Source of the DNA: Quercus robur
Taxonomy: Eukaryota; Streptophyta; Magnoliopsida; Fagales; Fagaceae
Assembly: GCF_932294415.1 (NCBI RefSeq)
Contig: NC_065543.1
Coordinates: 2,244,976 to 2,308,975 of the forward strand
Direction: 5' to 3'
DNA length: 64,000 nt
A model generated the notes under the pieces. That model was not told the DNA's origin and did no database searches. It saw only the letters and a program-made list of their open reading frames with translations. Within the stretch, counting starts at the first letter, position 1; every line of letters begins with the position of its first letter. Shown here one piece after another: positions 1 to 60,248 of this stretch. The translations under genes and the position numbers were made by a program.

Positions 1-456
1 TCAAATGAGATTGACTCAAGCAGTAGCTCTTTTGTAGACAATGGGGTTTGGGAGTTGGGTTTTGTCAAAAAGGATGTCTATGACTTTGGAGTTTTACTTC
101 TTGAGTTAATTACAGGGAAGGAGCTCAATCAAATCGATAATTATCTAAACAGTTTGTGCGAGGGTTTGGTTGATTGGATTACTCATCTTTTGACAAGTTC
201 TTCCGATGTCTACAGTGTCATTGATAAACCTTTGATTGGCCAAGGATTTGATGGTGAAATCTTTCAGTTTCTCAGAATTGCATGTACTTGTCTTAAGCCC
301 TTTCCTGCTCAAAGGCCAACAATGCTTGAATTGTACAATACAATAAATCTTTTGGGGGAGAGATATGGCATCACAAATGACTTTGAGATTTTGAGTCAAC
401 CTGAAATTGCTACCGCAAGTACGTCAAATGAAATTGTTGAGGTAGAAATTACATAG
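1..456 (+). CDS. Gene A: BIR1-like LRR receptor pseudokinase, C-terminal part (5' end outside window)
   Basis: The reading frame is open from base 1 to a TAG at 454-456, so only the last 151 residues of a kinase exon are seen. It begins in the activation segment and passes directly from an ELGFVKKDVYDFG stretch into subdomain IX, without the APE triad and the residues around it that BIR1 has. It then runs through GLVDWITHLL, an IDKPLIGQGFD segment, the subdomain XI RPTMLELY motif and a tail ending NEIVEVEIT. This matches the C-lobe of the BIR1 group (At5g48380), which are plasma-membrane receptors that bind BAK1-type co-receptors. Compared with gene B it ends five codons later, because B has acquired an earlier stop. 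No lesion is visible in this part. Whether the whole gene is intact cannot be judged from this window. Confidence 0.8.
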   Translation, partial: SNEIDSSSSSFVDNGVWELGFVKKDVYDFGVLLLELITGKELNQIDNYLNSLCEGLVDWITHLLTSSSDVYSVIDKPLIGQGFDGEIFQFLRIACTCLKPFPAQRPTMLELYNTINLLGERYGITNDFEILSQPEIATASTSNEIVEVEIT

Positions 457-10984: not shown

Positions 10985-13945
10985 ATGACTCTTAATGCCA
11001 GAGTATTCGCAGCTCTTTTTCACATATTTACTTGCTTATTTCTAGATATTCTTGAAATAAGCAATGGCGTACAGAGTGATATCGACTGCTTGAAGTCAAT
11101 TAAACATTCGCTTGAAGACCCATACGGCTACCTTAATACTTCATGGAACTTCAATAACAATACCGAAGGTTTCATCTGCAAATTTACTGGGGTCGATTGC
11201 TGGCACCCCGATGAGAATAAGGTCTTAAATCTCAGACTAAGCGACATGGGGCTCATGGGCCGGTTCCCTCGGGGCATTAAAAACTGCACAAGTCTAACAG
11301 GGTTAGACCTTTCCAATAATGAGCTTTCTGGACCCCTCCCATTTGACATAGCAGAGTTAGTCCCCTGTGTCACGACTCTCAACCTCTCCAGCAACAAATT
11401 TTCTGGCGAAATTCCAATGAGCTTATCCAATTGCACTTATCTAAATGTCCTTATACTTGACCACAATCATCTAACTGGTGAAATCCCTCCGGAATTAGGC
11501 CACCTCATTCGTTTGAAACAATTCAATGTTTCTAACAATATGTTGTCAGGGGTTGTCCCTTACTTTGGTCCCAATACCTCTATTACAGCCGATAGCTTTG
11601 TTAACAACTCGAAACTTTGTGGAGCGCCTTATTTGGAACCCTGTTCAACTCCAAAGCAAAGAAGGAAGTTCGATTTTTCATTCAAAGGTGGGTTTCAAGT
11701 TGGTTACGCGGTTTCTGCAGTTTCAGTAATAACTATTTTTATGTTCCGGTCCCATTATGTGGCTTGCATGAACGACAAGCAAAGTAGTAAGAACAAGAAT
11801 GAAGAAGCTGATCAAGTTAACCAGCTGCCAACTAAAGGGCTCCTGCTAGAAGGGAGCAAAAAGGTACTCTCTAGCCACAAAGAAAATTAATAAATTAACT
11901 TCTTTCAATTCTTTGATTTTAAATCTTTTTCGGAAAAATATAGGTGGTTTCTCCTTAAAACATAGGAAGGTGCATCACTTAATCCCTTCTATGATTTTTT
12001 ACCCTATAAAAAATTTGTGACCACCCTAAAAAAATTTTAAGCTGACCACAAATCTTTAAGGGCCTAAGGATATAACTCCACTGAATTTTTTATTTTTTTA
12101 TTGGATGTAAATTCTGACAAATTCATCATTAAATTATATTTTCTTCTTATATTTTTCATACTCGCAAAATTTCAAGAATATAAAAAATTAATAGTTATGT
12201 CACTAATCAACTGTTTAAATTTTGAATTTTTGTAGTCTAAAATTATACATAAATAATAAGTTTATGGATCGAATTATAAATTACATCTGATTGACATGAA
12301 ATTTGACATGTATTTTAAAAACATAAAGAACATGCAATTCAACAGTTAGATTTTTAAAATATGTAGTTATGTTAATTTGTTTAGTGAGAGTTGCAATCTT
12401 AGGCTACAATTACGTTTGTAACTAAACTTTGTCCTTAAATTTTGGTCCTCTTAATAGAATATTAAGCCCTTACAAACAAAATGAAAATGTCTAGGAAAAT
12501 TTTTGTTGAACTAAAATTTTGAAAGAGATATAGCTTATAGCATCAATGATGAGAATATCATTCAATGATTTCAAAATAAGAAAATTGTAGGACTTTACAT
12601 GTGTGTGTGTGTGTGTCAATATATGAAGTTTTCTTTTTATTAGATTTTGCATAATATAAATTTTTTAATAGCCACCTTGTAAAAAAAAAATTTCCTAGAA
12701 CCGCTATTGTCTATAAGTTTTGAGTCTAACACCTCATTTTGTACTGTTTTATAAGAAAATAATATGGAAAGTTGTGATCATATGCGGAACTTAGTGTTTG
12801 TTTTCACGAATGTATAGCACGTTACACAAAATGGTAGGTGAAATAATGATCAAAATAATGCAATCATATAGCCCCTTAAAAAGAAACATCGATGTGATAA
12901 ATTTGGTTGTAATTTCAAATTAGTACTATTTCAAAGTGGCAAATTATTTGATCCACAGAATTCTCAGCTGGAGGGAATGGTTATTAGAATGAACTTTACA
13001 GAACTCAGAGAGGCAACTAACAATTTCTGCACAGACAATGTGATTGGACTGGGAAAGATCGGGGTGATGTACAAGGCAATCCTTCCAAATGGTTCACCCC
13101 TTGCAGTTAAGAGGTTACATGGTTGTCAATCATTTGACAAACAATTCATGTGTGAGTTATTGGCTCTGGGCAAATGGAGGCACAATAACATAGTTCCCCT
13201 CTTGGGATTCTGCAAAGAGAGGAAAGAAAAGCTCCTAGTGTACCAATATATATCGAATGGCAATCTTTATGATTGGCTATATGCAAAGGAAGGCAACAAT
13301 AGGATCTTGGAATGGTCTTTGAGGATTCAAATTGCAATTGGGGTAGCAAGAGGCTTGGCATGGCTTCACCACAAGTGGGATTTGAAAGTAGTACATCTTA
13401 ACTTGAGTTCAGACTCTATTTTACTTGATAATAATTTTGTGCCTAAGATATCAAATTTTGGAGGGGCAAAAATATCAAGTTCTGAAGGAATAATGTTTAT
13501 TGATTCAAATGACACTCACTCAAGTAATAGCTCTTTTGTAGACTTTGGGGTTTGGGATTTGGGTTTTGTTAAAAAGGATGTGTATGACTTTGGAATTCTG
13601 CTTTTGGAGCTAATTATAGGAAAGGAACACATTCAAATCAACAATTATTTGAACAATTCAAATGGGAGTTTAGTTGATTGGATTACTCATCTTTTCACTT
13701 CTTCGTCTGATCTCTACAATGTCATTGATAAATCTCTGATTGATAGAGGATTTGATAGTGAAATCTTTGAATTCCATAGAATTGCATGTACCTGTCTTAA
13801 CCCTTTTCCAAGTAAAAGGCCAACAATGTTTGAATTGTACAATACAATAAGTACTCTTGGGGAGAGGTGCAGTCTTACAAATGATTCTGAGATCTTGAGG
13901 CAATCGGAAATTGCAACAGCAAGTACTTCAAATGAAATTGTTTAG
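10985..13945 (+). CDS. Gene B: BIR1-like LRR receptor pseudokinase, intact two-exon gene
   Basis: Exon 1 is 10985-11863 and exon 2 is 12959-13945. The junction AAG/GTACTC ... CCACAG/AAT is in phase 0 and gives 621 residues, close to the 620 of Arabidopsis BIR1. Residues 1-27 form a signal peptide. An LRRNT with CLKSIKHSLEDP and ICKFTGVDCW follows, then five LRRs (about 78-192), an LCG...EPC cap (211-220), a membrane span at about 237-255 and a Lys-rich juxtamembrane tail. In the kinase, the glycine loop GLGKIG is at 323-328 and the Lys of AVKRL at 344. HRD is HLN (439-441), DFG is NFG (459-461), and the activation segment goes from DLGF to VKKDVYDFG (500) without APE. It should be a catalytically dead plasma-membrane receptor acting through partners such as BAK1-type co-receptors; that role is by family. 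An early TAG removes the last few residues present in gene A. It is the only undamaged full-length copy here. Confidence 0.85.
11864..12958 (+). other. Intron of gene B, carrying a MULE-like MITE
   Basis: The 1,095-bp intron has GT and AG ends. About 12055-12440 is a diverged copy of the repeat at 38338-38742: the TTCATCATTAAATTATATTTTC, TTGACATGAAATTTGACATG and AACTAAACTTTGTCCTTAAA stretches match in order. A GT dinucleotide repeat lies at 12601-12616. If the intron is retained, translation stops nine codons past the donor, giving a membrane-anchored LRR protein without a kinase. Confidence 0.65.
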
Positions 13946-25075: not shown

Positions 25076-26481
25076 ACAAAACAAAACTCCACCGTCCAAT
25101 ATAATCTCGTACCTTGTTTGTTCCCAAATCCCATCAAACCAACCAAAGCCATTCAACTTTCTACGCGGTCTAGATGAGCAAGAACAACAAAGTTAGACTA
25201 GCTTCCCCTTTCTTTTGAAAAGGTATGGTTATTGTTCATATGGGGACTTGCCTTGACTGTATAGGGCTCTTGATTCTTGAATCTCTTTGACCTTCTAGGT
25301 CTCCAAAATTTCACTTGCTTTTTCACTGTAGAAACCCATTTTTGTGAAAACAAAATCAAGCATAACAAAAGGCAGTATAAACATTTTTTTGTTTTTCGTT
25401 TTTGTTTTTGTTTTTTTTTCTTTTTTAAGTAGACGTTGACCTTTAAAGATTCAGATCAACAATAATTCTGCTGTTTCTGTTTTGAAGAACAATTATATGA
25501 CTCTGTTGTTTCAAGAAAGCGTTGTAGTAGGTATTATATTGGAATTTTAAATAACCCAAAAAAAAAAATTGGGAATAAAGTAAAAGCCAAAGCAAAAGAG
25601 ACAACAAAAGAGAAGTGTGCTTTGGAACTAACCACCCTCTTTCTCTCTCCAAAATTTTTTATGTGAAAGAAGGGAGTGCGTTATTACTATTGTACTTTTC
25701 AATAATTGTATAATGGGTAAATGTTGTTATACATAAGTGTAAGAAATAGGAACTTGCAGCAGAATATAAGTAATCAGTTTTTTTTGGCATACCTTTCTTG
25801 GCCTAAACTGATGATCACACAGGGGCTTTGAGATTGTTCTACGTTGCCTAGAGCCAACCTCCACGCAGACCAGCTATTCAAACACGTTCTAAATTCCAAT
25901 TTGTATGATCCACAAACCAAAAACGTTTCTCCGACGGTGTTGCACACTACTAGAGTGATGCAAACATAACCCACAACCTAAGAGCCTCACAACACTCTGT
26001 AAACACTATGAGAAATGTAGAATTCGTTCACTGTTCAATGGGTACCATTCTTGGCAGTTATATACACACCACTCCATTAATATTAAGTGGGATAGTGGAC
26101 TTAGTGGGGTAATGTAACGGTCCAATACCATTACTCCATAACTCGTAGATGTTACAATCTGAGGCAAATAGAGGGACATGCTCACATTGGGTGTTTGTCT
26201 ATATTCTTTCAGTTTCTAACAATAAGCTAATTTATATAGTTTTGCATATACACCCCTAAAACAACATAACTTGTGGGTTAAAGTGTGTGTAGTAAACACT
26301 ACTCCTATACAATTAGTCACAAATGAGTCATGGTTAAAGTGCTTTTGAGCTTCTAGAATGGAAGGACTCTACATTTTAATTTATTTTTGGGTATATTCCA
26401 AGTCCACCTTTCTATGCGGTAAATTGATTGGCATCCTCTATATAAATGCAACGCTAATATGCTACTATATCTCAAACACAA
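25076..26481. other. Intergenic region upstream of pseudogene C
   Basis: About 25076-25215 continues the paralogue upstream block (CTACGCGGTC, AACAACAAAGTTAGACTAGC). The stretch of about 25720-26225 has TGTTA / TAACA-type ends and could be an old solitary LTR, but no target duplication was found, so this is not called. A TATATAAA box at 26439-26446 lies about 40 bases before the ATG of pseudogene C. No gene is seen otherwise. Confidence 0.4.
26439..26446 (+). promoter_or_regulatory. TATA box of pseudogene C
   Basis: TATATAAA in a CCTC-TATATAAATGC context about 36 bases before the ATG at 26482. The position is short but plausible for a plant gene with a small leader. Confidence 0.4.
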
Positions 26482-27311
26482 ATGCCTCTTAATTCAAAAC
26501 CCCTGGTCTTAGTCCACATTCTTTTCTGGTCATTTCTAGATACATTTATTTTGAGTCATGGTACTTAGAGTGCTATCAATTGCTTGAAATCTATTAGAGA
26601 TTCCTTGGAAGACCCTCTCAATCTCTTAAAGACTTCATGGACCTTTAACAACCTCGCGGAAGGTTCCATCTGTAACTATGTTGGGGTCACGTGTTTGAAC
26701 CCAACCGAGAATAGGGTATGCGGTATTGTACTTGCGAACATGGGGCTCAAGGGAGAGTTCCCCAAAGGCATTGAGGACTGCAGGGAACTTGTAAACTTAG
26801 ACCTTTCAGGTAATGAGTTTTCAGGATCAATCCCATCAAGCATAGGAAATTGCTCTTATCTGGGGGTTCTTAAACTTGACAACAACAAGCTAACAGGTCA
26901 AATTTCTCAGCAACTCAGCCAACTCAAGAATCTTAGAATCTTTAGTGTTGCTGACAATCTCTTGTCTGGTCCAGTGCCAGAGTTTGTCAACATTAATATT
27001 ACACGTGAGAGCTATGTAAATAATAGTGGACTTTGTGGAGGACCTTTAGAGTACTGTAAGAAGCATAGATGGGAGTTTGAAGTTTCTTTCAGAAGTGGGT
27101 TTGTGGTTGGTTGCGTTTTTACTGCTACTTTGTATACACCTTTTTTCATGTACTATATTAATCTTAGGGTTGGTTTGAAGATGAAGAATCACAATAAGAT
27201 GATGTCAACAACAAAGATGACAACTTTACTGGCAAGGAGGACGAACATAACAAACCTTGTTCTGTGAGTCAAATCCCAACTGAGGCATGACGACAGGAAC
27301 TGAGCAAAGAG
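26482..27311 (+). pseudogene. Pseudogene C: BIR1-like ectodomain exon, no kinase exon
   Basis: The frame starts at an ATG at 26482 that matches the start of paralogue E (PLNSKPLVLVHILFWSFLD against VLNSRPLVLLHILVWSLPD). An in-frame TAG follows about 31 codons later, where E has CTG/AGC. After that the exon is open to 27267: CLKSIRDSLEDPLN, the CNYVGVTC N-cap, about five LRRs, an LCGGPLEYC cap and a membrane span. A frameshift in the juxtamembrane tail puts the ancestral end (tail and AAAGAG/GTACTC donor at 27311/27312) out of frame. No kinase exon follows. About 750 bp downstream a copia element begins, and beyond that lies only a short B-like kinase tail. C and E form a subfamily distinct from B, D and G. 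Confidence 0.8.
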
Positions 27312-28062
27312 GTACTCTCTCTTTCTCTCTCTCTCTCTCTAGAGAAGTATTAATTCAAAAAATTAGATATTCTTTCAAACTTATTATTATTAAATCATTA
27401 TTATTATTAGTAGGACATTTTTTTTTTATGAACATTATTATTTGTAGGACATTTAGTACATAATTATACACATTTGAATGAATAGTATATGATACTATAA
27501 ATTATTAATGCGTATAATGTTGTATGCAAAAATTAAGAGAGAGAGAGAGAGAAAATGTGGAAGTTACCTTGAAAGCGTGTCGAGCTTTACATCCCATGAG
27601 CTGCAGAGTACTCTGCAGAACCGGACGCGTGTATCTAAACAACTCTTTCCCTTTGTCTCCTTCATCTTGATCCACCACCACTATGTACAGCACCTTCACC
27701 ACCTCTCTCTCTCTCTCTCTCTCTACCGTTTTTTTAATAACTAAAATCTGTTTTCCTATTTATACAAGTATATTGAAAATATCACACATTAAATCAAAGC
27801 AAAACGCAAAACACAAAAAAAAAATTAAAAATTAAAAAACAGAAAGTTTTTGGTTGGTTATGGTATTGAAAATTATAACACGCGTTTTAAACATGAATCA
27901 AGGAAGCAATGCTGATGAACTCAGAGAGAAGATCAAAAGCTGAGAAAAGAAAGAAAGAGAGAGAGGGGGGGGGGGGAAGTAAATAAGGAAAGCGGTGGGA
28001 AAAGGGGGGGTGTTTAGAATTTAAAAGGCGCAAAGAATTAAAAAATTAAAGAAGGGGAGAAT
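27312..28062. other. Remnant intron-like DNA with simple repeats
   Basis: This stretch begins at the ancestral donor of pseudogene C. It holds CT/GA microsatellites (27315-27340, 27538-27553, 27703-27724) and a G-run near 27965-27976. The GA and CT runs at 27538 and 27703 are complementary and could pair. The last five bases, AGAAT (28058-28062), are the left target duplication of the copia element. No gene seen. Confidence 0.5.
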
Positions 28063-28425
28063 TGAAAAGTATTGCAGTGAAAGAAAGAAATAAAGGAAAA
28101 TAGAGAAGCACGAGAGAGAGAGAGAGATTTGATGAAGAAAAGTCAGAATATTATTATTCAATTGAATCAGATACAAGCACCAATATATATAAAGGTAACC
28201 AGATCCGTAAAGAGTGGAACTATCCTAACTAACTCATAACCAATTGCTCCCAAACTCTGACACGTGTACATCAACAGTAGCAGAGTATTCCCTTCCTCAA
28301 CTGCACTATGCTACCTGTAGTTTACCTCCTATTTTACCTATCCTATAGGTCTTTTACCAGCAGCCTCATCACTAGCAGCATGTACTATATCAGTAACTCT
28401 ACCATTAGTAGCATGTGCCTTCACA
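28063..28425 (-). repeat. LTR of the young copia element (left, 3' LTR)
   Basis: 363 bp, TG...CA ends, containing a GA microsatellite. Nearly identical to 32839-33203. Confidence 0.92.
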
Positions 28426-31400
28426 TCCCCCCTCAAACGGAGGGGAGGGACTCCCATCAGTTTGTGAGCAAGATCCAGAAAGCGTGGAGAAGAGAGGGCT
28501 TTGGTAAAAATATCAGCTATCTGATCAAGAGTTGAGATGAAATGAACCTTCAATTCCTTACTTAGAACCTTTTCTCGAATATAATGATAATCAACCTCAA
28601 TGTGTTTGGTTCGAGCATGAAAGATGGGATTAGATGCCAAAGCCAATGCAGACACATTATCACACCAAAGCATCGGAGGCAAGAACAAGAAAATTCCCAA
28701 ATCTTTAAGAATCATTCGAAGCCAACTCAACTCAGCAGCAGTGGTAGCTAAGGCCCTATACTCAGCTTCAGTAGATGATCTAGCCACAGTAAGCTGCTTC
28801 TTGGCAGACCAAGTAATAGGAGAATGACCCAAAAAGACCACCATACCAGTAATAGACTTCCTATCAAGAGGATCACCTACCCAGTCAGCATCACAATAAG
28901 CTGAAAGAGCCAAGGAACCTGCCTGAAAATTAATGCCATGATGCAATGTACCCTTGAGATATCTAAGAATCCGCTTGGCTGCCACTAGGTGATGTTGGGT
29001 AGGATGGCTCATAAATTGGCACACTTGCTGGACAGAATAGGCCAAATCAGGCCTGGTAAAGGTCAAATATTGCAGCCCACCAACCATGCTTCTAAAAACT
29101 GTAGGATCAGGAAGCAAAGGGCTAGTCTGAGAACTAACATGAGCTGTGGGAGAGCAAGGAGTGAGACAAGGCTTACAATCAAGCATGTTGAACTTGGTCA
29201 ATAAATCCAAGGCATACTTGGACTGATGTACAAACAAGCCTGAAGAGGTATACTCAATCTGAAGACCAAGGAAATAAGCAAAAGGACCAAGATCTTTTAA
29301 ATCAAACACAGCAGCAAGTCTAGAGACCAAATGATCAATGAAAGGAACACTATTACCAGTAATAATAATGTCATCCACATAAAGAAGAAGATAAACCACA
29401 AATGACCCTTGATGCAGAATAAATAAATTAGAATCTGCAGAAGAAGCTTGGAAACCAATATGATATAGCTGAGAGGTAAAACTGTCAAACCAGGCCCTAG
29501 GTGCCTGTTTGAGACCATAAATGGCCTTATGCAGTTTACAAACAAGCTCAGGATGGTCAGGATCCACATAACCAGGGGTTTGAGACATAAACACCTCCTC
29601 TTGAAGCACACCATGCAAAAAGGCATTAGACACATCCAATTGCTTCAATGACCAATTAAACTGAACAGCCAAAGCCAAAATAATCCTAACTGTGGCAGGC
29701 TTAACAACAGGACTAAAGGTCTCCTCATAGTCCAAACCATACTGCTGCAAAAACCCCTTAGCAACAAGCCTTGCCTTATATCTAGCAATTGAACCATCAC
29801 TACCCCTCTTAATTTTATACACCCATTTACAATGAACCACATTCTTACCAGAAGGAAGAGGGACTAAAGACCAAGTTTGCTGCTTCAAAAGAGAATTGTA
29901 CTTTGAATCCATAGCTTCAATCCAATGAGGAAACCTAGAAGCAATAGCAAAGGTAGGTGGTTCTTCTTGAAGATAATTTTTCACAACTGCATATGCTTTG
30001 GGCTTGAAAATACCATGATTGGATCTGGTAAGCATGGGATGAGTGTTTGGAAGTGAAGAGGAAGTAGATGGAGGAAGGGGAGATGGCAACTGATCTGAAA
30101 TCTCAGTATGAGAAAGGGAAGCAGCTGGACCCGAGGAAGTAATAGTACTTGAAGAAGGTAAAGAAACATCAGTGGAAAGGATAGAGACACCAGAGGACTG
30201 ATGAGACACAGGAAAAGAGGAAGAGACAGACGGCAATGCATCAGAAACATCAAAAAAGGAGGAAGGAGAAGAACCGGACAAAAGATTAGAAATCCAAAGG
30301 TCCAAAGGAAGATGAACAGAAAAGGATGAGGAAGAAGAATCAGACTGACCTGTAGGAATAGTAGGGAAGTCAGACTCATTAAAGATCACATGAGGAGTAA
30401 TATAGACCTTATGACTATGAGGATCAAAACAAATATACCCTTTGGACAAAGGAGGGTATCCTAAGAAGATGCATTGTGTAGACTTAGGCTGAAGTTTGTG
30501 ATCAGTATAGGGCTAGAGAAGAGGAAAACAAGCACAACCAAAAGTTTTCAAAGATGATAAAGGAGGAATAGAATGAAATAACAGCTCCCAAGGACTCTTA
30601 AAAGCCAACACTGAAGAGGGAAGCCTATTAATCAGATAAGTGGCAGTACTAAAGGCATAACACCAATAAGAGGAAGGAAGATTTGACTGATAAAGCATGG
30701 AAAGACCACTTTCAACAATGTGCTTATGCTTTCTCTCAGCAACACCATTTTGCTGAGGAGTATAAGGGCATGACAACTGATGTTGGATGCCATGATCCAA
30801 ACAAAATGACTTAAATTGATTACTCACATATTCACCCCCTCCCCATCTGTCCTAAGGATTTTGATTGTAGACTCAAACTGATTCTCAACAAGAGCTTTAA
30901 AGTGCAAGAAAACAGTAAACACTTCAGATTTATGTTTAAGAAGAAACAACCAAGTGAATCTAGTATAGTCATCAACAAAAATGACATAGTATTTATAACC
31001 AAGAGTAGAAGTAATAGGAGCAGGGCCCCAAACATCACTGTGAACAAGTTGTAAAGGAGAAGTACTAGACATGACATGCTGTGGAAAGGAAAGTTTGTGC
31101 ATTTTAGCACTTATACAAGATTTAAATTGAGAACAAATGTCATCATGGACAGAAATTTTAACACTATTATTAAAGGAAGACAAGGCAGAATGAAGAAGCT
31201 TGGAACAAGGATGACCAAGTCTTTGATGCCACAACATTGCTTCATTGGAAACAGGAGTAGTAACAGAAGACTTGAAAGCAAGAGATGAAGCAATAGCAGA
31301 CTCAGTAGATAGTTGTGAAGGAAATGGAATAGGATACACACCATCTTTACTCAGGCCTTGATAAAGAACCTTCCTCGTAGCCAAATCCACAATTAAGAAC

Positions 31401-32838
31401 TGATTGGCATCAAAATAACAAAAAGCATTGTTTTGTAAACAAAGTTTATGGACAGATAAAAGATTGGAAGCTAAATCTGGGACCCTAAGGATATTATCTA
31501 AACGAAAACAATGAGAAGGGGTTTGAAGCTTACCATTACCAACATGAGTCACAGGTAATTCTTGCCCATTGCCAACAGTAACAGTTTCATGACCAGCAGT
31601 AGCTTGAGAAGTCAATGAAAGCTGAGAAAGATCAGGTGTAACATGATCAGAACACCCTGTATTAGTAAGCCAACTCGAAACATTTGCGGAAGTAGAATTG
31701 GTAGTTGCTGTCATAGAACTAGCTGCCATAGAGGCTAGTTTGGCTGGAGCATGTTTGCCTTGATAGGCAAAATTCATGCGATGATAGCAATCCAATGCAG
31801 TATGACCATTCTTGCCACAAATCTGACAAGTAGGTCTTGAAGATAGAGGTTGACCTTGAGACGGAAATGAAGGAAAACCAGAACCATTCTTATGCTGAGA
31901 TTGTGGTTGAAATCCAGGAAACTGAAGAATACCATTTGCATTGCCAGAGGAATGACCAGAGGATTGACCATGATTAAACCCAAAATTAGGACCAAAATTA
32001 TTAAATCCTCTACCACGACCCCTCTGATTGCCATTTCTACCTCTACCTCTAATATGATTATGATTAAAACCACTCTGAAGAATCATAGCCATAGCTGTAT
32101 CTCTAGCTGTATCCCTAATCTCAGATTTCTTCTTAAGAGCTCTTTCTTCAGCATTCAACAAAGTATTCAATTCTTCAATAGTAACCACATCATTACGAGT
32201 CCTAATTGCAGAACAGAATGCACTATATTCATGTGGTAATGCTTCTAAAACTAAGTGTATGAGTTCTTCTTCATCAACAAACACAGCAACAACACTCAAT
32301 CTATCCCTAGCTTCTTTAATTCTTTGAAAGAAATTATCCATGCTTTCAGGACCTTTCTTAATACTCAGCAATTCATTCCTTAAACTCAAAACATGAGAAC
32401 GAGATACAGAAGCAAACCTCTTTTCAAGCACATTCCAGACTCCCTTCGCAGATTTCTGACCAACGATGATGGCAAGGACTGTTGGTGATAAAGTAGAGTT
32501 GATGAAAGTAAAAAGAGCTTGCTCTCTGCTTCTCCAATTGACAAATTCTGGATTTGACTCTCTAGTGAAGTTTCTAGAACTATCTTTCAAGAAAGGATCT
32601 GGAGCTACACATGATTCTTCAAGAAAACCGATCATTGCATAAGCTTCAAGTATCACAACGATCTGATGCTTCCACACAATGTAATTTGTGAAATCTAGCT
32701 TTACTGTCATCATGCTCGACATATTTGATAACAGTAGCAGTGATGGATTCACCAGAGGAATTGTGGTCGTAGTGGTAGAAGGAGTTGTTGAAGAACTTGA
32801 GCTGGGAGCGGAAGCCATTAATGGTGGCTCTGATACCA

Positions 32839-33203
32839 TGAAAAGTATTGCAGTGAAAGAAAGAAATAAAGGAAAATAGAGAAGCACGAGAGAGAGAGAG
32901 AGAGATTTGATGAAGAAAAGTCAGAATATTATTATTCAATTGAATCAGATACAAGCACCAATATATATAAAGGTAACCAGATCAGTAAAGAGCGGAACTA
33001 TCCTAACTAACTCATAACCAATTGCTCCCAAACTCTGACACGTGTACATCAACAGTAGCAGAGTATTCCCTTCCTCAACTGCACTATGCTACCTGTAGTT
33101 TACCTCCTATTTTACCTATCCTATAGGTCTTTTACCAGCAGCCTTATCACTAGCAGCATGTACTATATCAGTAACTCTACCATCAGTAGCATGTGCCTTC
33201 ACA
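32839..33203 (-). repeat. LTR of the young copia element (right, 5' LTR)
   Basis: 365 bp, bordered on its left by the complement of the tRNA primer site and on its right by the target duplication AGAAT. Confidence 0.92.
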
Positions 33204-33393
33204 AGAATAAGGGGAGGGATTGGTGTCGCAAGAAAAAGAACACAATCTGAAGTTTCCGGGGAATGCCATTTTATGATTTGAATTGTACAATACAATAAGT
33301 ACTCTTGGGGAGAGGTACAGTGTTACAAATGAGTCTGAGATCTTGAGGCAATCGGAAATTACAACAGCAAGTACTTCAAATGAAATTGTTTAG
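33204..33393 (+). pseudogene. Orphan kinase-tail fragment of a B-like gene
   Basis: From about 33277 the sequence encodes ELYNTISTLGERYSVTNESE and onward to NEIV and a TAG at 33391-33393. It differs from the end of gene B at only a few bases and shares B's early stop, which gene A lacks. Upstream of 33277 there is no kinase similarity, so the fragment begins at a duplication or deletion breakpoint. It cannot encode a functional product. Confidence 0.8.
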
Positions 33394-41635: not shown

Positions 41636-42553
41636 AGATAGACCAACACTATCAAAGTAAAAAACATTCCAATTTTGGTCCATTCTGTCTATTCGGTCTA
41701 GTTCGCTCCACTTTAGTACATTTTAGTCTATTATAGTCCAATTTGGCCAATTTGGTCCATTTAGTCTGTTTTTGTCCATTAAGTCCAATTCGGTTTGTTT
41801 CAGTCCATCTCATTTAGTTTGGTCCATCTGATTTACTTTGGTCCATTTAGTTCATTTAGACTGTCTGGAGTTCAGTCCAGTTTGATCTATTTTTGTCCAT
41901 TTAGTCTAGTTTGGTCCATTTCTATCTACCTTGATCCATTTGATCCACCTCAATGAACGTTGAAAAGTTTTGCATCTAGATTCTGAACCAAAGAAGTCAA
42001 TTTCATACTAGAGGGCATTTCAGTTTGGCCAAGGGAACAAAATATTCCGGTATTGGTTGATTTCAACGTACCCTTTTAGGATCACCGATATATATATATA
42101 TATATATATCCAACTCGTTGATAATTAAGCCCTTCTGCTATTCTTTTTTGACTCTTCCTCTCCCAGAAAATAAAAACCACTTGATTAAATTCCACCATGA
42201 ACCATCCTCAATTTTCTTCTTCTTCTTAGCAATGTGTAACACCTTTCCATATTCTCGACTGTACTACACTCTTCCATTTTCTTAGTTAGTACTAGGTGCA
42301 ATGCCTTTGTAACAACTTTTAATCCAGGGGTTTCGGGAACTTTTAATCTAAACCCTTGAAAGTAGGTTGTATTGCGTGGATTTTTGGTTTTGAGGGTTTG
42401 AATTTCACTATTAGCGTTCTTGTCATGACTGGCATCTCTACTATTATACTAATACTCAGCCAACTACGTCTTCCAAACCAGTTCTCTCTCTCTCTCTCTC
42501 TCTGTAAGTAGTTAATACTCAACTTTCTACTTCTGTGTTTTCTTGCTAAGCAA
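41636..42553. other. Minisatellite array 3 and upstream region of pseudogene D
   Basis: About 41665-41955 is the longest GGTCCA-type array in the window. An AT run lies at 42091-42110 and a CT run at 42484-42503. The block near 42410-42475 (ATTAGCGTTCTTGTCATGAC, then TACGTCTTCCAAACCAG) matches the promoter-proximal region of gene B, and TTTTCTTGCTAAGCAA precedes the ATG at 42554. Confidence 0.6.
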
Positions 42554-44771
42554 ATGGCTCTTGGAGTCCTCACAGCTCTTTTGCATATATTTGCTTGCTT
42601 ATTTCTTGATATTCTTGAAATAAGCAATGGTTCACAGAGTAGTATTGACTGCTTGAAATCAATTAAAAATTCACTAGAAGACCCTCACAGATACCTTAAA
42701 GATTCATGGGACTTCAGCAACAATACCGAAGGTTTCATTTGTAAATTTGATGGAGTTGCTTGCTGGCATCCTGATGGAATGAGGTCATAAGTATCCAACT
42801 CAGAAACAGGGGGCTCTGGGGCCAGTTTCCTCGGGGCATTAAAAACAGCTCAAGTTTAACAGGGTTAGAACTTTCTTCTAATGAACTTTCAGGACCCCTT
42901 CCACTTGACATTGCCGAGTTAGTCCCGTTTATCTCAATCCTTGACCTCTCCAGCAACAATTTTTCTGGTGAAATTCCAAAGAGCTGCCAATTGCAGTTAT
43001 CTAAATGTTCTTAAACTTGACAACAACCAGCTATCCGGTGAAATACCTCCCCAAATTGGCAACCTCGATCGTTTGAATGTCCTCAATGTTTGTAACAATA
43101 AGATGTCAGGGTTAGTCCCTGTCTTTGGCAGTACCGCAATTACAGCCGAGAGCTTTGCTAACAATAAGAACCTTTGTGGAAAGCCTTTAGAACCCTGTCC
43201 AACTCAAAAGCATGGACTGAAATTCGACTTTTCATTCCAAAGTGGGTTTCTAGTTGGTTATGTGGTTTCTGCAGTTTCAGTAATGACTATTTTTGTGTCC
43301 CATTATGTGGTTTGCATGAATGAAAGGAAAACAGATAAGAAGATGACACTGTCAAAGGAGAGGAGTACTAAGAACGAGAATAAAGAAGCTGATCAAGTTA
43401 ATCAGTCGCAAACTAAGGGGCTCCTGCAAGAAGGGACCAAAATGGTACTTTTGAAACTTCTTTTAATTCCTTGTTTCAACTTTTTCGGAAAAATATAAAA
43501 AACCCCATGATAGTTTTTCATCGAAACATGAAATCCTGCAACTGCAGTTTTACAAGAAAATCATAGGGGGTTTGTTTAGTTTTCCGAAAAAAAATAGTCT
43601 TTCTTTTTTCATTTTGTTTTTCTAAAGTTCAAGACCTATCAAAATGGTATGTCGAATAACGATCAAAATGATGCAATCATAGAGCCCCTTAAAAGAAACA
43701 TCCATGTGATAAATTTTGTGGTAACTTCAAATTTGTACTGATCCAAAGTGGCAAATTATTTGATCCACAAAATTCTCAGTTGGAGGGAATGGTTGGTAAA
43801 TGAACTTTACCGAACTTAGTGAGGCAACTGACGATTTCAGCATAGACAACGTCATTGGGATGGGAAAGATTCGGGTGATGTGCAAAGCAGTTCTTCCAAA
43901 TGGTTCACTCCTTTCAATGAAGAGGTTACATGGCTGTCAATCATTTGAAAAACAATTCATAAGTGAGCTATTGGCACTGGGTACATTGAGACACAATAAC
44001 ATAGTTCCCCTCTTAGGATATTGCAATGAAAGGAAGGAAAAGCTTCTAGTGTACCAATATATATCAAACGGCAATCTTTATGATTGGCTACACGCAAAAG
44101 AAGGCACTGATAAGATCTTGGCATGGCCTTTGAGGATTAAAATTGCAATCGCGATTGCTAGTGGCTTGGCAAGGCTTCACCACAGGTGGGATCTCCGAGT
44201 AGTCCATCTTAACAAGAGTTCAAACTCTATTTTACTTGATAAGAATTTTGTGCCCAAGCTATCAAATTTTGGAGGGGCAAAAATATCTAGTCCTAAAGGG
44301 ATGATGTTCATTGATTCAAATGACATTGACTCAAGCAATAGCTCTTTTGTAGATTGTTGTGTTTGGGAGTTGGGTTTTGTTAAAAAGAATGTGTATGACT
44401 TTGGAATTCTGCTTCTTGAGCTAATTATAGGGAAGGAACCCATTCAAATCAACAATTTTTCGAACAATTTGAATGGGAGTTTGGTTGATTGGATTACTCA
44501 TCTTTTGAGTTATTCTTCCAATCTCTACAGTGTCATTGATAAATCTCTAATTGGTTGAGGATTTGATGGTGAAATCATTCAATTTCCTAGAATCGCATGT
44601 ACCTGTCTTAACTTCTTTCCTAGTCAAAGGCCAACAATGTTTGAATTGTAAAATACACTAAGTACTCTTGAAGAGAGATATGGCATCACAAATGACTTTG
44701 AGTTATTGAGGTACACAGAAATTGCTACTGCAAGTGCCTCAAATGAAATTGTTCAAGTGGAAATTACATAG
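42554..44771 (+). pseudogene. Pseudogene D: BIR1-like LRR receptor pseudokinase, full length but broken
   Basis: Exon 1 (42554 to the donor after 43444) starts MALGVLTALLHIFACLFLDI and keeps the N-cap, LRRs, LCGKPLEPC cap, membrane span and tail. Frameshifts lie near 42780 and near 42980 relative to gene B. Exon 2 begins about 43771. Its acceptor reads CCACAA where B has CCACAG, and a 1-base loss gives a TGA just before MNFTEL. The kinase (43800-44558) has the glycine loop as GMGKIR, Lys in SMKRL, HLN for HRD, NFG for DFG, and no APE (WELGFVKKNVYDFG). A TGA follows SLIG, and further stops lie in the tail before the ancestral end at 44771 (VEIT). At least five lesions make a functional product unlikely. 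It belongs with B and G. Confidence 0.85.
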
Positions 44772-45385
44772 ATCCATTAATCTGAGTAACTATTTAGCTA
44801 ATTAATTAGGTTAAACAAGTCTAGTTTGTTAGGGTCTAAACAAAACAAACAATTGGAAATTTCTATCACAACCCAAACCCCTCCCCTCCCTTTCAAGTCC
44901 TAGGTGCTTAGGTGCCAATGGACCATCAATGTGGTCAGCAGTTGAAATATTGGTTAAAGTGTTCAAAGTATCAATTTTTTTTTTTTTTTTCACTAGCTTC
45001 AGTCTTTGATATTTATACTTTATTTTATAATCCCCCTTTAAAGTTAACAACTTTATGATTTTTATTTTTTTAAATAAATAAATAAACTGTTAACAACTTT
45101 TTTGTGTTGGGCTTCACTCAATAAAGAGAAATTTGGTTCCATGTGGATCTTTTTGTTAGACGCCGGCTTCATTTCTTTGCAACTATAAAGATGCAAGGGA
45201 CCACGCGCATTCTCTTTTACAGCCAAGAATAAGTGTAAAGTGGTTCACATTTGGTCTTACTCCTTTGAGTACTGATTACATAAGCAAAAGATTTTACAAT
45301 CTAAGTTTCTTTTATTATTCCTTCTTGTTCCTGTCATCTTATTTCTTACGTGTCAATACTCATGCTGCTAAAATCTCAAACCCAA
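44772..45385. other. Intergenic region between D and E
   Basis: A short stretch at about 44790-44850 (GCTAATTAATTAGGTTAA, then AGGGTCTAAACAAAACAAACA) resembles the 3' end of the solitary LTR-like block at 54738-55592. The rest contains the presumed promoter of E, with a weak TATAAA-like CTATAAAG near 45184. No gene seen. Confidence 0.45.
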
Positions 45386-48240
45386 ATGGTTCTTAATTCA
45401 AGACCTCTGGTTTTGCTCCACATTCTTGTCTGGTCATTGCCAGATACGCTTACCCTGAGTTCTGGTACCCTGAGCGATATCTCTTGCTTGAAATCTATTA
45501 GAGATTCCTTGGAAGATCCTCTCAATCACGTAGCCACTTCTTGGACCTTCAACAACCTCACAGAAGGTTCTATCTGTGGATATGTTGGGGTCAGTTGTTG
45601 GTACATATCTGAGAATAGGGGCCTTGCGAACTTATAATCTTAGACCTTTCAGGCAATGAAATTTTTAGGATCAATCCCACGTGATATCAGTGAAATACTG
45701 CCGGCTGTAGAAGTGCTCAAACTCTCAAACAATAACTTGTCTGTCTGGAGAAATCCCATCGAGTATGGGTAATTGCTCTAATCTGGAGGTTCTTATACTC
45801 GACAACAACAGGCTAACGGGTCAAATACCTCAGCAACTCAACCAGCTCATCCGTCTAGAAGTCTTTAGTGTTGCTAATAATTTGTTGTCAGGGCCAGTGC
45901 CAGACTTTGTCAACATCACTACAATCAAGTCTGAGAGCTATGTAAATAATAGTGGACTATGTGGAGGGCCTTTGGATTGCTGTAAAAAGCATAGATGGAG
46001 CTTTGAAATTGAAATTTCTTTCAGGTGTGGGTTTGTAGTTGGTTTTGTGGTTTTTGCCTTTTCATATACAGCTTCTTTTACCTACTATTTTAATCTTTGC
46101 GTGGGATCAAACAAGAGGAATAAGATAATGCCAACAAGTACTACAGAATTGACAGCGACCAGGAAGAACATCGGTAAAAAAGTTGATCAAGTTACTCAAT
46201 TGCCAACCAAGGGCATTGGGAAAGAAGAATTCATGAAGGTACTTTTTCTCACTCTATTATAAGTGCTAGGGGCAAGTACATATATGATTTATAATAAGGA
46301 AGAGTGCAAAGTTACATGAGATATTGATTGTAAAGAAAAATCAGTTTTTTGGAGAAATTAGTTGAAATGATAGTTTCTTACAATGATTCGTGATTGGTGT
46401 ATTTCTTTGTTATTTGTTGTGGGTCAAATAATTCGTGATTGGTGCATTTAGTCTATTCCATGAATTTGTTAATATTGTTAGTGATAAATGAAATTATTTC
46501 TTTGAAGTAAAATTTCAAATGCTTAAAAATATTACTAAAGCAAAAATTATCTCATGACATGTGAACAGAACTAAAAATACATTACAAATATGTTCAATTT
46601 AAATTTGATATTTTATATATACTACCTTTTTTTATAGGTTTTTATATAAAACTGTTAATAACTTATGACACATTTAATTTTATATAAAAGAAATGAGTAT
46701 ATAAATTTATGATGTTATAACCTGTAAAAAAAATTGATTAACAAATTTTCTATAAATTTTAGTTAGTTTCCTCACAAAATATAAAAAATTTGCTCACCTT
46801 TTTTAAGCAAAATAGCAAAAGAATAGTTAACTACATATGAACGTGTATGTGTGTGTTGTATATATTGGTATATACAAAATATGTAGTATATAATATTTGA
46901 AAGTGGAGAGAATTCAATTAAAGATTTTATGTGAATCCTTGAAGAACCGTTGTAGGAAGGTCTCGAAAGCTTTAGTCGACCGGTCCAATCCTTAGTGGAT
47001 TAGTATTCAATGAAAATATTATTAGTGGATTAGTGCTCGATTGCAAGTCAATCGTTCTAGTTATGAATTTGACTGGTCGAAGTGTGTTTACAATTAGTTG
47101 AGATGTGAGAAAAATAGTTTTTGCAAACTTTTAATGTAATGGTTTTGAAAGCATTTCCTTTGTGCCCAAGGCCGACCCAAGATAATTTGAGACCTAAGGC
47201 GAAAAATTTAAAGGAATCTTTTATATCTACATATCACTTAAATAATATTTAGTGAAGTGTCATCAATGAGCTGAAGCGTCCTGCTGTGCTTATAATGTTC
47301 TAAGAACACTTGGAAAACAGAAATCAGAAAATATTCTTCCAAATGATTTTATTCTTTTTCCAAAACCCAAAATACATTATTCACTTAAAATTTAGCTCAT
47401 GAACAATTTTATATTCACTCCATAAAGTTTAAAGTGAATGCTTGTAATATGTAAAAAACTTAAAATATTGCTTTTAGTCCTTACTAAACTTAAAGTCATT
47501 GTTTTTAGTCTTTGTGGAGTTATGATGTGTCATTTTTTAGTTTAATCATATTATCTAAAGGACTAGAAGTGATAACTTTAAACTTGGACTACTAAAATTG
47601 CTCATGTTCAAAATTTTAGAGACCAATTAAGTTTTTTATTTATTTACTTATTTATAATGCTAGTTTACAAAACAAGAAACTAATTTAGAGTACAGTTCAA
47701 AAGAAGCCCAATTTCTCTTCCTCTCTCAATGTGTCAGTCGTGGGCAAGCAATATTGCCACCTAAAAAACAATATAAATGCTATTAAATACTGTTGTAATT
47801 TCTGATTAGCACTAACCCAGAATGGCAAATGATTATTGATCGACAGATTTCTCAGTTGGGCTGAAAAGTTACTAGAGTGAGCGTTGTGGAACTTAAAGAA
47901 GCAACAGGCAATTTCAGCAAACACAATTACAATGGGTTGGGAACGATTGGGATAATGTACAAGGCAGTGCTTCCAAATGGTTGTCCCCTTGCAATTAAGA
48001 GGATATATGGCTCTCAGTCTTTTGAGAAACAATTCAAATCCGAGCTATCGGCTTTGGCTAGATTGAGACACAATAACATAATTTCCCTCTTGGGTTACAG
48101 TAAAGAAAGGAACGAAATTCTTCTAGTATACCAATATATCAAATGGTAACCTATATGACTGGCTACATACTGGGAAAGACAAGGATAAGATCTTGGATTG
48201 GCCTTCAAGGATTAAAATTGCCTCTGGGATAGCAAGAGCA
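45386..48240 (+). pseudogene. Pseudogene E: BIR1-like receptor, internally deleted and truncated
   Basis: The start MVLNSRPLVLLHILVWSLPD at 45386 matches pseudogene C; an upstream in-frame ATG at 45350 has no counterpart there. Exon 1 keeps CLKSIRDSLEDPLNH and CGYVGVSCW. It then loses about 60 bp after SENRG compared with C, and regains frame in the LRRs, LCGGPLDCC cap and membrane span (45765-46238, donor ATGAAG/GTACTT). Exon 2 starts after CGACAG at 47847, has a TGA within six codons, then SVVELKEATGNFSKHNYNGL, the glycine loop GLGTIG and Lys in AIKRI. A frameshift follows NQYIKW-like residues at about 48150, and similarity ends at about 48240 in the region before the catalytic loop. The C-lobe is missing. 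The 1.6-kb intron holds a truncated hAT-like fragment. Confidence 0.85.
47168..47262. mobile_element. Truncated hAT-like fragment (copy 2) in the intron of E
   Basis: GGCCGACCCAAGATAATTTG, then GAGACCTAAGGCG, and the following AT-rich 60 bases match the left part of 36012-36716. The right part is missing. Confidence 0.7.
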
Positions 48241-54330: not shown

Positions 54331-57178
54331 TCGACTACCATTCTTTACGGTTGCATGACTTGGAAAAATAGAATCAGCAATTTCTTGTGGTGGGTTGGAT
54401 TGTCGCTATGGTCACAGTGGTAGTCGTTATGTTTCGTAATACGCCAATATTGCTTGTGAAGAAGGCAATAACCAAGAAGAACAAGAAATTAATGAAAGCA
54501 GGAACCCGATGGTGTTCCACTGATGAAAGAAGCAAGAACATGATGGTAATCTCTTAGAGCCTGTTTGTTTCCATTTTCATGTTTCTTTTTGTCCAATACA
54601 TGATTGCAATATACTATTTTCAAAAGAAAATTAAAATGACAAATATATTTGTCTCCTAATTACAATCCAAAACAATGTTAAAAATGGTAGGTTCTGAGAC
54701 TTTAGGAACTAATGTATTAGAACTTCAATTTATATTATGTTGGCAAACCATGATCAAAACATAGAGTCTAGGTTTAGGCTTACTCAAAGTATGTTTATTT
54801 GTAAAATTAGAATCGAGTGATTGCAAAATTTATTGGACTAAATTTGCAAGGCTCGATCGATCGAAAATTAGACTTGATCGATCGAACCACATGCAGATTT
54901 ATTTTTCTATAGAGTTCCAATTTAGCCCAAACTCTACTTAAACGTATTAGGTTTCAAGTAAAACACTCCTATATATAAAGGAAACCCTAAAACGTTTTTA
55001 TAAGTTTTTAGAGAGATTAGAGTGTATCTTGTGCCTCTTTTGTAGATCTAGGGTTTTGTACCCAAAAGCTTTCTAAGGTTGCTCTTTATGTTGTGTGTGT
55101 GAATTTTCTATGAGATCTAGAAGTGTTTGCCTTCACATACACTTAGGGTTTCCAATCTCAAGATTGATGTCAAGAGTTTGGTAATCAATTCAGTTGCAAA
55201 TTCAAGAGCTTAAAGATATAAAAGCGAGAGTGCTTGTACTTGCTGGGAATCTAAGAAAGAAGTAGACCATGGACTCGGAGCTTTCATAGGGTTGTGGTAG
55301 TAAGTTTCCTACTTAAGGTAGTAATAGGATTTTAGTAGTCTAAGTTGCTATTGTGTAAACTTCAATTCTTTCATAGTGGATTTACCTTAAGGATAGCTAA
55401 GTTAAATCATCCCTAGGTTTTTTACCAGTTTGGTTTTCCTAGGTTATCATATTGTTGCGTTCTTTATTTTCTGCACTTTACAATAATATGATATATGTGT
55501 GTTAACCTAGATTTGATAATTTGACTAAGTTAATCACCTGGCTAATTAACTAGGTTAATTTAGTTGTGTTTTAAAGGGTCTAAAAACAAACAAAAAATAT
55601 TAAAGAAGCCCTCTTACACTACCACAAAAAAAACTTTACATGCATATTCGTGATCCTTTCAATTCAACATTAAATGATCATCCTTACTCTCTGCTTCTCT
55701 CCCTTTGAAAAATTATGTTATGAGAGCCCCTCTCACATTTGGGTGCCATAGATATTTAGGGAAGAACCAAATACGAGAGGGGTGCATCATGAGATGAGAT
55801 TTATTACTTGTTTAATACTTGCACATAATGCTCCTCTTACATGGGCTTAGACCCTGTAAGAATGGGACACATCTGTATGTGAGAGGTGTATTGTATGCAA
55901 CTATTATACAATATACCACCTCCATGAAATGATCTCCAATGAGATATTTTCTCCCCAATTTTTCATGAGTAGGCACTTCGTACAACCACTTAAAAGAAAC
56001 ATCTATGTTAAATTTTTTTTATTATAAATTTTGATAAGCACTAATGCAAAATGGCAAATGATTTGATCCACAAATGTCTTAGATGGAGAGAATGGTTACT
56101 AGAATGAGCTTTACAGAAATTAGTCAGGCGACTGGCAATTTCAACACACACAATGTCATTGGATTATGAAATATTGGGATGATGTACAAGGCAGTGATTC
56201 CAAATTGTTGGCCTCTTGCAATTAAGAGGTTAACTAATTGTCTATCTCATGAGACACAATTCCTATCTGAGCTATTAGCTCTGGTTATATTGAGACATGA
56301 TAACTTGGTTCCCTTCCTGGGATATTGCAGCGAACAAAATGAGAAACTTCTGGTGTACAAATATGTATTGCATGGCAACCTTTATGATTGGCTACATGTA
56401 GGAGAAGGAGAACACAAGGATAAGATCTTGGAATGGCCTTCAAGGACTAAAATTGCGATTAGGATAGCAAGAGGCCTATCATGGCTTCACCATAAGTATG
56501 ATTTCAGAGTGGTCCATCTTAACTTGGGTTCAAACTCTATCTTATTAGATAAGAATTTCGAGCCCAAGATATCAAATTTTTGGGGGGGCACAAAAATATC
56601 AAGTTCTGGTGGGTAATGTTCACAAATTCAAATGTCATTGACACAAGCAAAAGCTCTTTTGTAGACAGTGGGGTATGGGAGTTGGGTTTTGTTAAAAAGG
56701 ATGTCTATGACTTTGGAATTCTGCTTCTTGAGCTAATTACAAGGAAGGAACCCATTGAAATTAACAGTTTTTCATATGATTTTAATGGGAGTTTGTTTGA
56801 TTGGATAACTCACTTTTGAGCAATTCATTTGATGTTTACAGTGTTATTGATAATTCTCTAATTGGTAGAGGATTTGATGGTGAAATCTTTGAGTTACTTA
56901 GAATCGCATGTACTTGTCTTAACCCTTTCCCTAGTCAAAGGCCAACAATGCTTGAATTGTACAATACAATAAGTGCTTTTGGGGAGAGAGATGGCATTAC
57001 AAATGACTGAGATATTGATGCAACCTGAAATTGCTATTGCAACTAGCTCAATTGAAATCAATACAATAAGTACTTTTAGGGAGAGATATGGCATCACAAA
57101 TGACTCTGAGATATTGATGCAATCTGAAATTGCTATTGCAAGTAGCTCAAATGAAATTGTTGAGGTAGAAATTGCATA
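54331..57178 (+). pseudogene. Pseudogene F: BIR1-like receptor with deleted ectodomain and broken kinase
   Basis: A promoter-type block (CTTTACGGTTGCATGACTTGG, about 54345-54365) is followed directly by a membrane span and tail (VGWIVAMVTVVVVMFRN, then ITKKNKKLMKAG...SKNMM, to a GTAATC donor at 54546). Signal peptide and LRRs are gone. After 1.5 kb of intron holding an LTR-like block, exon 2 begins near 56075 with the acceptor changed to CCACAA. The kinase reads MVTRMSFTEISQATGNF, has a stop in the glycine loop, AIKRL, HLN for HRD, NFWGG for NFGG, and WELGFVKKDVYDFG without APE. A frameshift after SSSGG, a TGA at about 56817 and a further stop break it. The tail carries a tandem duplication of about 98 bp, ending EVEIA at 57176-57178. 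Confidence 0.8.
54738..55592 (+). mobile_element. Solitary copia-type LTR-like block (fossil)
   Basis: The block starts TGTTGGCAAACC and includes a TATATAAAGG box near 54972. Its 3' part (GGTTTTTTACCAGTTTGGTTT, then TCTGCACTTT) has the pattern of copia LTR 3' ends. Pieces of the same sequence occur at about 44790-44850 and 63385-63490. No internal region or target duplication was found, so both boundaries are estimates. It looks old and lies within the intron of pseudogene F. Confidence 0.4.
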
Positions 57179-59424: not shown

Positions 59425-60248
59425 ATGGCTCATAGTGTGAGACTCGGCAGGGCTTTACTTCACATATTTGCTTTGTCATTTCTGGACATTCTTGAAATAA
59501 GCAATGGCTCAGAGAGTGACATCTACTGCTTGAGGTCCATTAAAGATTCATTAGAAGACCCCCACAACTTCTTGAAAGATTCATGGTACTTCAACAACAA
59601 TACCGCGGATTTCATCTGTGAATTTGTTAGGGTTGAATGTTGGCACCCAGATGTGAATGAGGTCTTAAATATCCAACTCAGTCACATGATGCTCAAGGGC
59701 CATTTTCCTCGTGACATTGAGCACTGCACACATTTAACAGGGTTAGACCTCTCTGCTAATGAACTTTTAGGACCAGTCCCATTTGACATAGGAGACTTAA
59801 TAATCCCATTTGTCATTAAACTTGACCTCTCCGGCAACAAATTTTCTAGCGCGAAATCCTAAAGAATTTTTCAATTTCAGTTTTCTAAATGTTCTTAATC
59901 TTGACCAGAACCAACTAATTGGTCAAATCCCTTCCCAAATAAGCAACCTCGATCATTTGAAGTTCTTCAATGTTTCTAACAATCAGTTGTCAGGATTGGT
60001 CCCCGTCTTTAACAAAACCACTACTAAATTTACAGCTGAGAACTTTGCTAACAACAAGGAACTTTGTGGAGGGCCATTGGAACCCTGTCCAAAACAAATA
60101 TGGAAGTTCTTTTCATTCAAAAATGGGTTTCTAGTTGGTTATGTGTTTTCTGTAGGTGGCATTGTCCAAAAGGAGGAGAACTAATAAAGAAGCTGATCAA
60201 GCTAACTACTTGCCAACTAATGGGCTCCTACAAGAAGGGAGCAAAAAG
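59425..60248 (+). pseudogene. Pseudogene G: BIR1-like ectodomain exon, frameshifted
   Basis: The ATG at 59425 starts MAHSVRLGRALLHIFALSFL, aligned with B and D; an upstream in-frame ATG at 59380 has no match in the paralogues. The exon encodes CLRSIKDSLEDPHN, CEFVRVECWHP and LRRs. A frameshift lies at about 59850 in the GNKFSS region (B: SNKFSGEIP). The next frame continues LRRs, the LCGGPLEPC cap and a partial membrane span, which is shortened. A TAA then falls where the tail should start. The ancestral tail (EADQANYLPTNGLL...GSKK) and donor (AAAAAG/GTACTT, after 60248) are still readable. No kinase exon follows within the window; degraded retroelement DNA starts about 340 bp later. Confidence 0.8.

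Follow-up and report, generated by a model that had tools for sequence, protein, structure and literature searches.

Gene B and related genes in the window

The window, i.e., the whole stretch of DNA analyzed, comprises 64,000 nucleotides of Quercus robur and corresponds to C39:2244976-2308975 of the genome searched (785.7 Mb, 42 contigs). It contains gene B, a predicted two-exon LRR receptor of 621 residues modeled from the DNA alone, together with related genes, pseudogenes, and copia-type elements.

1..456, plus strand: gene A, C-terminal part of another copy (L022 in the genome search), the rest lying to the left of the window
6745-7902, plus strand: copia-type retrotransposon protein (Pfam)
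10985..11863, plus strand: gene B exon 1, open from the ATG, with a GT donor directly after 11863; signal peptide, LRR ectodomain, transmembrane and juxtamembrane stretch (Pfam LRRNT_2, LRR)
12959..13945, plus strand: gene B exon 2, kinase-like domain, 328 aa including the stop; AG acceptor at 12957-12958
26479..33390, plus strand: gene C, with LRR exon at 26479-27153 and a kinase tail at 33253-33390, which is all that is left of the kinase
28338-32920, minus strand: copia-type element (Pfam) inside gene C, separating the LRR exon from the kinase tail
42542..44756, plus strand: gene D, pseudogene; stops in the LRR exon and two in-frame stops (44556-44558 and 44649-44651) in the kinase exon at 43800-44756
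45383..48237, plus strand: gene E; LRR exon broken, kinase exon ending before the catalytic loop, so that the junction described below is not present
56083..57161, plus strand: gene F, pseudogene with a stop in the glycine loop, a frameshift following NF, and a duplicated tail
59425..60266, plus strand: gene G; LRR exon spread over more than one reading frame, with no kinase exon found within the window
62896-63363, minus strand: copia-type retrotransposon protein (Pfam)

Exon 2 of gene B matched the Pfam protein kinase domain PF07714 with 87.2 bits, and its top match among solved structures was the BIR2 kinase 4l68 (E 1.1e-56, best of 1232). The ectodomain aligned with that of BIR2 (6fg7) over one single stretch (residues 10-221, E 1e-54), and also in a single stretch with the BIR3 ectodomains 6fg8/6g3w. 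Two genes on other contigs, L031 (C1) and L032 (C38), which we take to be BIR1-type (At5g48380-like) from their motif pattern, have the same exon layout as gene B and ectodomains that are 70-73% identical to it, whereas L042 (C3) and L043 (C2) are BIR2-like (4l68 matches at 1e-126 and 1e-148). By these matches and identities, gene B has a short LRR ectodomain of the BIR type. Its kinase domain is also closest to those of the BIR proteins, as reflected in the top match 4l68 and in the position of its clade beside L031/L032, with L042/L043 as the outgroup. Gene B is thus a BIR-like receptor, and binding of the SERK/BAK1 ectodomain is a putative property of its product.

An exact excision in the activation segment

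The original prediction for gene B was that HRD and DFG are altered and that the residues holding APE have been dropped. All three features were read in the sequence.

13394..13402, plus strand: HLN replacing HRD
13454..13462, plus strand: NFG replacing DFG
13568..13573, plus strand: deletion junction Val204/Lys205 (DLGFV/KKDVYDFG), with 12 residues absent between 13570 and 13571

The gap coincides with APEY[P/A]RTLVATP of the BIR1-type genes in this genome, i.e., APE and the stretch up to helix F. In the phmmer alignment of gene B with BIR2 (4l68), no large gap was opened at the junction because the distance from NFG to DVY is 44 residues in gene B and 46 in the BIR1-type genes. This alignment pairs FVDFG with YVAPE and leaves just two residues missing, which would suggest substitution, namely a segment of intact length that has merely diverged. 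Such an explanation is very improbable in view of the shorter copies. L025, which is less diverged in this region (27 residues, INGEFGDVELVKKDVYSFG), differs from L032 (VNGEFGDLGYVAPEYARTLVATPKGDIYSFG) by an exact in-frame gap of 12 residues, or 36 bases. In L025, L027, L029, and L023, the distance from NFG to DVY is 27-36 residues, and GEFGD/GIWDL is retained next to VKKDVY, which fixes the position of the 12-residue gap; MAFFT placed it identically in 18/18 rows. The alignment of gene B to 4l68 without a large gap was therefore rejected on the shorter copies, and the predicted loss of the APE segment proved to be a precise one. Loop lengths differ among the copies (27, 36, 40, and 44 residues vs 46 in the BIR1-type genes), and the crown copies owe their longer loop to a separate extension upstream of the gap.

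Copies across the genome

In the genome search with gene B, 122 of 2859 candidates were scored and 123 matches were obtained; the copy numbers are therefore minimum counts, and at this depth an APE-bearing member of weak similarity may have escaped detection. At least 40 copies that cover the junction are located on C39, 38 of them at 1.84-2.56 Mb and 2 near 40.03-40.04 Mb. Neither APE nor an insertion at the junction was present in any of these 40 C39 copies at the loci examined, which argues against a chance resemblance. All but one were readable in frame at the junction (39/40), the exception being L026, which is out of frame and has 13 stops; stops or frame breaks occur in many of the 40. 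The presence of APE was also checked in the four closest non-C39 genes among the matches listed (L031, L032, L042, and L043), and the 12-residue segment is kept in all of them. Within the window, the junction of gene B recurs, as predicted, in A (1-456), D (43800-44756), and F (56083-57161). HLN was found in both D and F, in agreement with the prediction; F continues as NF-W owing to its frameshift.

A misassembly or a hidden intron could remove the segment only on paper, and near-identical collinear copies that lie 0.41 Mb apart make assembly duplicates possible. We nevertheless consider this explanation practically negligible, because the identical 36 bases are missing from 40 sites, some of them in copies whose protein is about 50% identical to that of gene B, and because the coding frame is continuous through the junction. 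The collinear copies in question are L018, L010, L045, L037, L028, and L015 (C39, 1.97-2.03 Mb), which recur in this order as L014, L009, L038, L039, L036, and L016 (2.39-2.43 Mb) with 95.6-97.8% DNA identity, flanks included in most cases. They represent either a segmental duplication or an unmerged haplotype, and the latter would inflate the copy count.

Eighteen copies have an unbroken full-length kinase exon. An unbroken and full LRR exon 1 accompanies it in 5 of them in the DNA examined (B, L002, L003, L006, and L023). Exon 1 is broken in L004 and cut by the end of the examined stretch in L008, matches begin only at the LRR C-cap in L009, L010, L027, and L029, and no exon 1 was found within the examined stretch for the other seven. 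In L027 and L029 (about L027:1344-1780 and L029:1346-1780, counted along the upstream piece plus locus), the LRR C-cap and membrane stretch appear to follow immediately on the signal peptide; the LRRs are apparently gone, and the kinase exon downstream is unbroken. The C-terminal tail (NTISTFGER...) is tandemly duplicated in L008 (1501-2601) and in pseudogene F (window 56813-57161).

A single and old deletion event

The phylogenetic tree was based on the 18 unbroken copies and the four outside genes L031, L032, L042, and L043, with the deleted columns left out. Copies that contain a stop or that cover less than query positions 12-300 entered neither the tree nor the omega analyses, and L038 was dropped before counting as a duplicate of L009. 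The 18 copies formed one clade with a support of 100/100 and L031/L032 as its sister group, and the deletion maps as 1 change. Together with the absence of the segment from 40/40 C39 copies, this bears out the claim that a single deletion preceded the duplications: one event, older than these, suffices. No APE-bearing copy nested in the clade was found in this genome. B and L025 are separated by a neutral divergence of about 1.1 per site, which is similar to the value for L031 and L032 (1.25) and indicates that the deletion is old. The original prediction had added that the shared junction is not recent decay; this is correct for the deletion itself, whereas D and F are decayed (stops in both, frameshift in F). 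In this tree, which is confined to sequences of the one genome, the clade of gene B is separate from L031/L032, which carry the BIR1-type features, and direct orthology of gene B to BIR1 (At5g48380) is thus not supported.

Between B and L006, neutral divergence is 0.09 in exon 1 and 0.43 in exon 2, and the two exon trees disagree for B, L006, and L003, pointing to conversion or recombination between copies.

Conserved and lost kinase residues

The following positions in gene B were compared among the 18 unbroken copies.

13109..13111, plus strand: Lys51, beta-3 lysine position, kept in 18/18
13154..13156, plus strand: Glu66, alpha-C glutamate position, kept in 18/18
13577..13579, plus strand: Asp207, alpha-F aspartate position, kept in 17/18
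13817..13819, plus strand: Arg287, GHI arginine by alignment and the presumed partner of the lost APE glutamate, 18/18

Invariant in all 18 copies were Lys51, Glu66, Leu70, Leu81, His146, Phe167, Gly32, Gly35, and Arg287. This set includes the beta-3 Lys, the alpha-C Glu, the HRD His, and the DFG Phe, and with the alpha-F Asp kept in 17/18, it is the pattern of a pseudokinase with a conserved core. At the catalytic positions, (i) the HRD Arg is Leu in 18/18; (ii) the HRD Asp is changed in 15/18, being Asn in 13 copies, Ser in 2, and Asp in 3 (L025, L027, and L029); and (iii) the DFG Asp is changed in 18/18 (Asn in 16, Thr in 2). The clade therefore lacks the combination of HRD and DFG aspartates that marks an active kinase. 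The ion pair between the APE Glu and the GHI Arg is counted in PMC3415842 among the hallmarks of eukaryotic protein kinases, and the APE-to-helix-F stretch is described there as anchoring the activation loop; both the glutamate and the anchor are absent in 18/18. Judged from these kept and changed residues, the structural core appears to persist in the clade, whereas catalysis presumably does not.

The change from HRD to HLN cannot be counted as a fresh loss of the catalytic Asp, because this position is already Asn in the 4/4 outside BIR-type genes (HRN or HQN), and three basal copies read HLD. The latter three (L025, L027, and L029) have lost the DFG Asp and APE, and their catalytic Asp position may have been either regained or kept.

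Selection on the kinase exon

One-ratio codon models gave omega values of 0.37 for 17 unbroken copies (L010, near-identical to L009, was left out), 0.33 for the 7-row subclade of gene B, and 0.083 for the four outside genes. An omega of 1 was rejected for the 17 copies (2dlnL 226) and for the subclade (2dlnL 105). In our branch model, which on the B subclade agreed with IQ-TREE in both likelihood and omega, omega was 0.10 outside (about 0.1 for the BIR1-type kinases) vs 0.363 in the clade (p 7e-25 for the difference). The clade is thus under purifying selection, although this is relaxed about fourfold relative to the outside genes. A pairwise omega of 20 for L032-L042 was an optimizer failure on saturated data and was ignored.

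For gene B, the prediction of a dN/dS away from 1 was borne out for the lineage (B, L002, and their stem; omega 0.24, p 3e-9 vs 1) but not for the terminal branch of B taken alone, at which 0.455 was not distinguishable from 1 (p 0.157). Constraint on the B lineage thus lasted until recently, and the terminal branch is uninformative. As this branch is short, constraint on B itself cannot be proven, and under neutrality, a 328-codon frame would survive a branch of this length about one-third of the time. The tip of pseudogene D, with its stops set to gaps in the branch-wise run, gave 0.69, not different from 1, as expected.

These data bear on the possibility that the cluster is a decaying product of birth and death, in which dead kinase copies multiply and degenerate, those still open simply being recent and without a selected function today. 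The stops or frame breaks in many of the 40 junction copies, the pseudogenes D and F, the approximately fourfold relaxation of omega, and the lack of an unbroken LRR exon next to most unbroken kinase exons in the DNA examined all agree with it. However, the omega of the clade (0.37) is far from 1, the core residues are invariant at a neutral divergence of about 1.0-1.1 per site, and at 0.15 changes per site, a neutrally simulated 328-codon frame remained open in just 8 of 1000 runs. We therefore regard general decay as unlikely.

Evolution of the ectodomain and the kinase

The two exons have diverged from the BIR1-type genes to different extents. Ectodomain identity is 73% for B-L031, 70% for B-L032, and 73% for L031-L032, whereas the kinase of B is 46% and 47% identical to those of L031 and L032, which share 76%. 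The ectodomain of L023 has just 62-64% identity to the BIR1-type genes. On the stem leading to the cluster, the omega of exon 1 was 0.018 (7 rows; 2dlnL 14.0 for a class of its own); that of exon 2 was unstable, at 0.26 with 7 rows and 1.17 with 21 rows, the latter not significantly different from the rest of the cluster. Since synonymous sites between the cluster and the BIR1-type genes are saturated, the contrast in identity is firmer than these stem values. Within the B subclade, the order is now reversed, with pairwise omega values of 0.44-0.92 in exon 1 vs 0.29-0.36 in exon 2, i.e., the ectodomain is now the faster part.

As exon 1 is much closer to the BIR1 type, we also considered exon shuffling, by which a BIR1 ectodomain would have been placed onto a diverged kinase. 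This was rejected, because neutral divergence to L032 was similarly high in the two exons (2.3 and 2.8, both saturated).

Proposed role of the gene B lineage

Many copies have an unbroken kinase domain despite the deletion, so that the cluster copies probably act as dead-kinase regulators and not as enzymes. Our best reading of the gene B lineage, in which our confidence is evenly balanced and which is partly inferred, is that of ectodomain-driven, catalytically dead regulators of the BIR type. The ancestor would have been a BIR1-like receptor with the HRD Asp already replaced by Asn, from which a single in-frame deletion removed the 12 residues that run from APE up to the alpha-F helix. The DFG Asp would also have been lost in the lineage; its change in 18/18 copies makes phosphotransfer very unlikely. 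The lineage would then have multiplied in tandem, while selection maintained the ectodomain together with the structural core of the kinase (the K-E pair, hydrophobic positions of both lobes, the alpha-F Asp, and the GHI Arg) but neither catalysis nor the canonical substrate-binding segment. The ectodomain would hold SERK coreceptors such as BAK1 in inactive complexes, as in the BIR proteins, the intracellular part may serve as a docking or pseudosubstrate surface in place of an enzyme, and each copy may tune or compete with receptor complexes.

The data show the deletion, its single origin, the constraint, and the kept and lost residues; the absence of catalysis, SERK binding, and a dampening function are plausible extensions of these. 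Counting against this best reading are the approximately fourfold relaxation of omega, the neutral-like tip of B, the now faster ectodomain, the small number of copies (5/18) with an unbroken full LRR exon in the DNA examined, and the unstable stem omega of exon 2 at saturated synonymous sites.

A more far-reaching version, which we put forward tentatively and with less confidence, is that the lineage has evolved a new receptor tail. Deletion of the alpha-EF/APE module would have left the rest of the kinase fold as a docking module under selection, attached to a BIR1-type ectodomain in many tandem coreceptor silencers; the loop would have been stabilized and lengthened again, and the spine and the orphaned GHI arginine kept.

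As a natural experiment, the family can show which portion of the kinase fold remains necessary to a receptor without catalysis, and whether it is through the ectodomain that BIR-type proteins control coreceptors. Automatic annotation will label such APE-less genes as kinases, which calls for caution.

Comparison with known systems

According to PMC12666859, BIR proteins are pseudokinases whose ectodomains sequester BAK1, and PMC5618615 describes tomato BIR3 as a non-RD kinase that is phosphorylated by BAK1. Arabidopsis BIR2 (4l68, 6fg7) is the top kinase match of gene B, matches its ectodomain over the whole length, and is likewise a pseudokinase with a replaced HRD Asp. It differs in that it retains APEY and the segment to helix F in the 4l68 alignment; moreover, its glycine loop is degenerate, whereas the second and third glycines are kept in 18/18 cluster copies. 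The BIR1-type genes L031 and L032, which have the exon layout of gene B, differ from it by retaining HRN, DFG, and YVAPEY[P/A]RTLVATPKGD.

The ZRK proteins, which function in immunity, are also plant pseudokinases with a damaged DFG/APE region and a lost catalytic Asp: RKS1 is described as having highly modified DFG and APE motifs, ZED1 has Asn in HRD, and both serve ZAR1 (PMC3772041 and PMC6634424). By analogy, the cluster copies could be immune decoys or guarded pseudokinases, their kinase acting as effector bait or as an NLR adaptor, which would account for the tandem expansion and the catalytic loss in a clustered family with fast turnover. This is quite unlikely, because ZRKs are cytoplasmic and have no LRR ectodomain, whereas gene B has a signal peptide and an LRR exon and is not a cytoplasmic RLCK. 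In addition, APE is described as modified or imperfect in ZRKs, and not as excised to helix F. The pseudokinase of RNase L is described as lacking its activation segment (PMC3014569), but this animal protein is a nucleotide-driven dimer with a nuclease domain and has only the kinase fold in common with gene B. The statement that an activation loop without APE is unusual even among receptor pseudokinases is therefore fair, with RKS1 (modified APE) and RNase L (no activation segment) as precedents.

No relatives of gene B were found in the prokaryote and viral collections, which is unsurprising for a plant gene. For oak, large tandem expansions of LRR-RLKs have been reported, mainly in subgroups XIIa and XIIb (PMC6086335), and an APE-less BIR-type clade is not named in the open-licence literature searched. 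Catalytically dead BIR receptors, a damaged APE (RKS1), and a lost activation segment (RNase L) have thus been described before; what is new, relative to this limited open-licence literature, is the exact excision from APE to helix F common to a tandem receptor clade.
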